Part shown: positions 63,314 through 64,000 of the stretch, piece after piece
Position numbering within the stretch: the stretch's first letter is position 1
Layout of the letters: each line of letters starts with the position of its first letter
Assembly (NCBI RefSeq): GCF_007556595.1
Contig: NZ_VJNB01000001.1
Span: 310,001 to 374,000 of the forward strand
DNA from: Tepidimonas alkaliphilus
GTDB lineage: Bacteria; Pseudomonadota; Gammaproteobacteria; Burkholderiales; Burkholderiaceae_C
Length of the DNA stretch: 64,000 nt
Direction of reading: 5' to 3'
Notes under the pieces: generated by a model
The model's database searches: none
Told to the model about the DNA's origin: nothing
What the model saw: the letters and a program-made list of their open reading frames with translations, nothing else
Position numbers and translations under genes: made by a program

Positions 63314-63778
63314 GGCAGGTTGGTCAACGCAAAGGTCCAAGGCAGCCGGACGTCGCACGCCGCCACGGACGCGCGCGCCGGTCGCACCCGATTGTCATCC
63401 CAAAGACGCCCGCCACGTGCAACCAAGCGTAACGAGGCGGGCAGCATCCCGTTGAACAAGAGGCCAAGCATGTCACGCTTGCCTTCTGCGCCCCGCGATG
63501 GGTGACGGATCGGTGTTCGCGGACGAGTCATCCCTTCGGCCATCGGAAAAGCGCCCGGGGCTTGTCGCCGTGGAAAAGAGTTCTTTTCAAACAGATGTTT
63601 ATGATTTTTTATTAATGTAACTTCTTAAAAAAGTTGTCCGCGAGCTCTGTGGACTGAGAACTTTGGCTTATACTTCGCTTCGCAAGCCGTTCGGACGTAG
63701 CCAGGTGGCCTCGGCTCAGTTGCTCGTCCGCAACAGGCTGGATAAGTGGTTGACCCACAAGCCCATTTTTGGGGTAGA
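63314..63778. other. Non-coding stretch before the CRISPR array
   Basis: No gene is supported here. 63314 to about 63560 is GC-rich and holds the ompR upstream region; an 85-codon leftward frame across it looks spurious. From about 63575 to 63660 the sequence turns AT-rich, with T and A runs (TTTATGATTTTTTATTAATG), unlike the rest of the window. A TATACT hexamer lies at 63669-63674. This looks like a CRISPR leader with a rightward promoter, by position and composition only. Confidence 0.5.
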
Positions 63779-64000
63779 GTGGAGGTGCCCCGACTTTCAA
63801 AAGGGGATTAAGACGATTCTGGTACTCCAGGTTGGCGCGGTCGTAAGGTGGAGGTGCCCCGACTTTCAAAAGGGGATTAAGACGCCTCGAGTGGCCCAAA
63901 AGGCCTTTTCCAGGGTGGAGGTGCCCCGACTTTCAAAAGGGGATTAAGACTTCTCAGCAGCGCCGATGGTGCCGCTCATGATGGTGGAGGTACCCCGACT
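63779..64000 (+). CRISPR. CRISPR array, left end (cut by the window)
   Basis: Three complete 36-bp repeats (63779-63814, 63848-63883, 63915-63950), identical to one another, and a fourth cut off at 63984-64000 with one change (G to A at 63992). Spacers are 33, 31 and 33 bases (63815-63847, 63884-63914, 63951-63983). The repeat has a nine-base 5' flank (GTGGAGGTG), a CCCC arm, an 11-base loop, a GGGG arm and the eight-base tail ATTAAGAC. The tail resembles the 5' handle of crRNAs (ATTGAAAC) and suggests rightward transcription, which agrees with the AT-rich leader to the left. No cas gene is present in the window, so the type is open. Confidence 0.95.

Follow-up and report, generated by a model that had tools for sequence, protein, structure and literature searches.

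The window, by which we mean the whole stretch of 64,000 nucleotides analysed here (C1:310001-374000 of a host genome of 2.46 Mb in 33 contigs, with a listed completeness of 99.99%), ends inside a CRISPR array spanning C1:373779-374222, the window edge cutting through that array (Table 1). Seven repeats, the last of which is degenerate, alternate there with six spacers of 31-33 nt at a unit spacing of 67-69. Six of the repeats are 36 nt long and differ by at most one mismatch from GTGGAGGTRCCCCGACTTTCAAAAGGGGATTAAGAC, the first three being identical and the fourth carrying one changed base (GTGGAGGTA) ahead of its truncation by the window edge; these regularly placed, nearly identical units with unique spacers between them identify the locus as a CRISPR array, and the arrangement is not a product of chance, since the repeat pattern read backwards gave no match in the whole host genome. 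When folded, the repeat forms a 4-bp CCCC/GGGG stem, with the eight bases ATTAAGAC after it.

An upstream leader, and a reading of the array on the + strand, are suggested by the AT-rich block before repeat 1 together with the degenerate repeat at the opposite end. The left edge of this presumed leader is approximate, being placed where a 27-base match to the sister genome G005 stops (near 63440), and its sole blastn match among the fetched loci covers 19 bases (E 0.17). A consensus scan of the + strand revealed no sigma-70-like promoter, so that the sequence lends no support to transcription of the array.

Table 1. Features of the array and of its presumed leader, in window positions unless otherwise indicated.
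Feature	Position	Strand	Remark
Presumed leader, non-coding, including an AT-rich block (~63575-63635)	63441-63778	+	putative role
CRISPR repeat 1, 36 nt	63779-63814	+	from sequence
Spacer 1, 33 nt	63815-63847	+	no convincing protospacer
CRISPR repeat 2	63848-63883	+	from sequence
Spacer 2, 31 nt	63884-63914	+	no convincing protospacer
CRISPR repeat 3	63915-63950	+	from sequence
Spacer 3, 33 nt	63951-63983	+	no convincing protospacer
Repeat 4, first part, with A for G at position 9	63984-64000	+	from sequence
Remainder of repeat 4, repeats 5 and 6, degenerate repeat 7, spacers 4-6	to C1:374222		outside the window

Flanking genes and the corresponding site in sister genomes

To the left of the array lie the genes of a RisS-type sensor kinase and a two-domain response regulator, and to the right those of a SIMPL/DUF541 protein, a short-chain dehydrogenase, an alpha/beta hydrolase, RelA/SpoT, and DnaB, the neighbours of the array being housekeeping genes. 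PADLOC, run on 72 of the 87 listed window ORFs with a length of 250 aa or more, returned no match to any Cas family, Cas9, Cas12, and Cas13 included. The sequence-only reading had described three identical 36-bp repeats, a partial fourth, and spacers of 31-33 bases, all of which the coordinates bear out, and had seen no cas genes in view, which statement holds for these 72 ORFs, both Cas1 loci of the host lying on other contigs; its expectation of an effector beyond position 64000, for its part, found no support, the next genes being those from SIMPL/DUF541 to DnaB. Elsewhere in the window, an AAA_14/DUF4143 ATPase (window:53184-54443) has a match (E 8.4e-112) to PDC-S01, a family of candidates for phage defence, and a tandem pair of tRNA-Leu (CAG) genes occupies window:29454-29725.

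The response-regulator, SIMPL, and dehydrogenase genes occur together in eight of the ten sister genomes, the SIMPL gene having no match in the remaining two (G008 and G009). None of the eight sites so located contains an array, detection at these loci being set at three or more repeat copies. Measured from matched points in the two genes on either side, the separation is 259-364 bp in seven of the eight sisters versus 1237-1327 bp in the host; the eighth sister (G006) has at the site a reading frame that appears permease-like from its translation, without a family call. From the wider gap and the array-free sister loci it follows that an extra segment of ~0.9-1.0 kb, consisting of the leader and the array, is present in the host only, among the genomes compared. 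An empty site with respect to the III-B island of G005 was not demonstrable, G005:C1:196001-252000 giving no match at E 1e-20 to the host's own C1:373001-436254.

We also looked for remains of cas genes beside the array. A first tblastn search that included the array was rejected, the 20 matches listed lying all on the arrays of relatives. With the array removed, 24 translated segments compared with 26 loci gave 1805 matches at E 10 (best 1.75e-4), and the same segments reversed gave 1887 (best 2.3e-4), both counts being obtained without composition correction; with that correction the best E values were 0.017 for the segments and 0.024 for the reversed control. The real segments thus behave as their reversed forms do, and no cas remnant stands above chance at this place.

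Repeat family and cas genes of the host

The same repeat, within three mismatches, was found in none of the ten other genus genomes and in none of 398 other genomes of the family, drawn evenly from a larger group; nor did the exact repeat occur in a genome contig collection (from which the own genome was possibly left out), its 27-base core (one position being given as R) in viral contigs, or the string GGGGATTAAGAC in the literature searched, where the full text frequently omits repeats. The repeat nevertheless has relatives, belonging as it does to the family CCCCGAC..AAGGGGATT(A/G)AGAC, for which a loose pattern returned 23 stretches, mostly from Proteobacteria; since that pattern was built on the host repeat, shuffle statistics are conditional on that choice.

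Six operons of repeat-bearing genomes were typed by PADLOC and all are type III (III-B, III-C, or III-D), whereas L092, L093, and L094 are known by RAMP matches and frame sizes only, and the other stretches are untyped. Arsukibacterium MJ3 has a III-B operon (Cas6, Cmr3-6, Cas10) beside its family array; KatS3mg121 and JA1.bin11 have III-B operons whose Cas10 matches Cas10b models, in each instance on the contig of the array; Bryobacter has a III-C operon (Cas10c with Cmr3-5); and Thiobacillus RS262 and Thioalkalivibrio halophilus HL17 have III-D operons, in which Cas10d accompanies fused Cas7 proteins. RAMP genes are present in 13 of 14 tested genomes carrying family repeats, G417 being the exception. 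In JA1.bin11 an RT-Cas1 fusion (L023:4680-6806) lies near the family array, the Cas10b-type operon being on the same contig but farther from the array. When the host repeat was aligned with 16 chosen repeats, that of the Thiobacillus III-D locus scored highest (22), followed by repeats of both III-B and III-D loci, a type label counting as a result only for loci typed by PADLOC. Judged by this kinship, the array repeat is not new in type but belongs to a type III repeat family already known; its subtype, in turn, cannot be fixed from the repeat, because III-B and III-D loci share the family.

The alignment scores bear as well on two further readings. A type VI-A (Cas13a) or other class 2 array would agree with the 36-nt length and the CCCC/GGGG stem, and a Cas13a repeat scored 4, as did a Thermus type III repeat, so that the score alone cannot separate distant types; under the same scheme, however, the Thiobacillus III-D repeat scores 22, the genome gave no Cas13a match, and the Cas9, Cas12, and Cas13 families are missing from the 72 window ORFs, all of which leaves a class 2 array highly improbable. 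Use of the array by one of the resident systems, I-E and I-F being both present in the host, has a probability close to nil, in that their 28-nt repeats score -1 and -6, respectively, against the array repeat.

In the host genome, PF01867 detected Cas1 at two loci only, one I-F and one I-E, neither on the contig of the array. The I-F locus comprises Cas1, Cas3f, a weakly matched Cas8f, Cas5f, Cas7f, and Cas6f, and the I-E locus (G000:C23, L014:8285-18002) is complete, each system possessing a 13-repeat array of its own. The layout of the I-F locus (G000:C10, L013:3224-13170) is seemingly unusual, the array, cas1, cas6f, cas7f, cas5f, and the weak cas8f being on one strand and cas3f on the opposite one. 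The RAMP search of the host genome gave neither matches nor candidates, none of the four candidates of the Cas10 search qualified as Cas10, and no type III-style Cas6 (model PDLC01477) was found, the Cas6 proteins present being Cas6f and Cas6e. With neither Cas10 nor Cas7/Cas5 RAMP genes in the genome, what the host has is an array of a type III family, not a type III system.

As to the reach of these searches, those for RAMP and Cas6 were each positive in five of the ten sisters, and in 14 named control genomes RAMP was positive in 4, Cas10 in 5, Cas6 in 0, and Cas13a in 1. The Cas10 model is unspecific at weak E values, being positive in E. coli and matching weakly (E 3e-4 and 4e-4) in a pair of sisters that lack RAMP genes, for which reason Cas10 was called only at E values under 1e-6. 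The negative of PF09827 (Cas2) in the host carries no weight, because that model misses the Cas2e which PADLOC finds there.

With regard to what the sequence-only reading had made of the repeat, the 36-nt repeat that it had called unusual is indeed unlike the host's own I-E and I-F repeats, and type III, which it had listed among several candidates, is the type of all the related loci that were typed. The likeness to Cas13a repeats, which had been drawn from a comparison of tails by eye, found no support, the typed relatives being type III and the genome having no Cas13a match. An effector elsewhere in the genome was likewise not borne out, there being no match to RAMP, Cas10, or a type III-style Cas6; and the notion of a doorway to an undescribed defence module falls, with no effector downstream and no type III genes found in the genome. 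The orphan array, which that reading had named as its own contrary case, fits the lack of the type III genes searched for.

Spacer targets and folding

A blastn search with the whole array at E 10 gave matches in 47 phage records and 26 records of plasmids, 20 being listed in either case; at E 1 neither a phage nor a plasmid match was left. None of the exact 20-21-base cores of the six spacers occurred in viral contigs, a strict condition that would miss diverged targets. All 11 genus genomes gave some match at E 1, the best of them, apart from the array, being 0.05, and several of the G005 matches to the host array fall in G005's own array; no convincing target emerged among them.

Orphan arrays directed against cas genes have been described, as the I-F orphan arrays of E. 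coli (reviewed in PMC8616872), which precedent would accommodate an anti-cas or regulatory array targeting type III cas or host genes. We compared the spacers with 25 loci, some from the host itself and the others type III loci from sisters and relatives: none of spacers 1-4 did better than its own shuffles or reversal, spacer 6 reached 21 of 31 positions, equal to its controls, and spacer 5 reached 24 of 32, none of its six shuffles nor its reversal exceeding 23, which we do not take for a real match. No spacer being really above the controls, and the own genome providing no convincing self-match (best E 0.27 apart from the array), such a role is very improbable.

By mean folding energy, the six spacers are more hairpin-prone than GC-matched 32-mers taken from pieces of the own genome at P ~0.0025, which value becomes 0.10 when GC is not matched; the test has n = 6, was chosen after looking, and is driven most by spacer 4, as strongly folded as only 0.09% of the GC-matched 32-mers. 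Their mean shuffle z was -1.65 (standard error 0.79), the lowest of 18 other spacer sets being -0.92. The two strongly folding spacers, 4 and 5 (L008:1020-1119), attain -19.5 and -15.7 kcal/mol, respectively. The hairpin bias, being post hoc and dependent on GC matching, was set aside as unproven. From the hairpin-prone spacers, unmatched in the collections searched, and the RT-Cas1 beside the family array in L023 one might still construe a record of structure-biased, possibly RNA-derived acquisition by a type III adaptation module since lost or unassembled, which proposition we regard as decidedly improbable.

Origin of the array and comparison with known systems

Cutting by Cas6 and the targeting of RNA by a crRNA-guided Cas10 complex are established as general features of type III. 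Given such machinery in its host, the transcript of an array like this one would accordingly be cut by Cas6 3' of the CCCC/GGGG hairpin to yield crRNAs with the 8-nt tag AUUAAGAC, and these would direct a Cas10 complex of the Cmr/Csm kind to the RNAs that they match. Since the type III machinery is lacking in the present host genome, we consider it highly probable that the array is an orphan of the type III family, most likely either a relic or an insertion unaccompanied by its operon, and one that would be no longer extended. Against this reading stand the six nearly perfect repeats, by which the decay of the array, if any, is recent.

The main rival, which we deem unlikely, is a live array acting in trans with a III-B or III-D system that is either missing from the assembly or shared among strains. 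The well-kept repeats speak for this possibility, and an operon could hide on a plasmid or in a gap, the genome being in 33 contigs. RAMP genes, moreover, are present in five of the ten sisters, of which PADLOC types G005 as III-B and G009 as III-D; and in Thiobacillus RS262 the array is separated from its operon by ~4.5 kb, the reading frames between having no PADLOC matches. Against an action in trans stand the lack of RAMP, Cas10, or a matching Cas6 in a genome of such listed completeness, and the assignment of both Cas1 loci to I-F and I-E.

The orphan reading closes the lead from which the analysis started, in that the repeat points to a type III repeat family already known, with no undescribed effector within reach. 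What the locus offers is one more example of an array that either stayed behind or came in with its operon missing, the genus being one in which type III is patchy, and as such the array could serve the study of the gain and loss of type III immunity.

Orphan arrays and their possible functions are already known (PMC8616872), and the host array resembles those described there in being without cognate cas genes; the E. coli I-F orphans of the same source carry anti-cas spacers, whereas none was found in the host array.

Within the genus, the arrays on RAMP-bearing contigs of G002, G004, G005, and G008, only G005 among them being typed, end in GGGATT(A/G)AGAC; no array was detected on the III-D contig of G009. 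That contig (G009:C102, L080 and L095) bears a III-D operon with Cas10d, a Cas7-Cas5 frame, a two-Cas7 frame, and a large Cas7-like frame, and farther on a possible Cas6-Cas1 fusion, a Cas6 match (PADLOC E 1.3e-8; Pfam 22.5 bits, below the cut-off of 25) preceding Cas1 in one frame. The III-B locus of G005 (L065) is like the host array in having a 36-nt repeat with the ending GGGATTAAGAC and a predicted stem that ends 8 nt from the 3' end. The stem and the 5' part of the repeat nevertheless differ between the two, the spacers of G005 are mostly of 34-35 nt versus 31-33 in the host, and the G005 array, unlike that of the host, has 30-31 repeats and adjoins Cas6, Cmr, and Cas10 genes.

The closest counterpart by repeat is the Thiobacillus MAG RS262 (L091), with a Cas10d, Cas5, and Cas7 operon on the contig of the array, of which genes none was found in the host. 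Its repeat, GTTTTTAGGCCCCGACTTTCAAAAGGGGATTGAGAC, agrees with that of the host at only two of the first eight bases, but at 27 of the last 28 (29/36 overall), and the unit spacing is 66-71 over the first ten intervals in RS262 versus 67-69 in the host.
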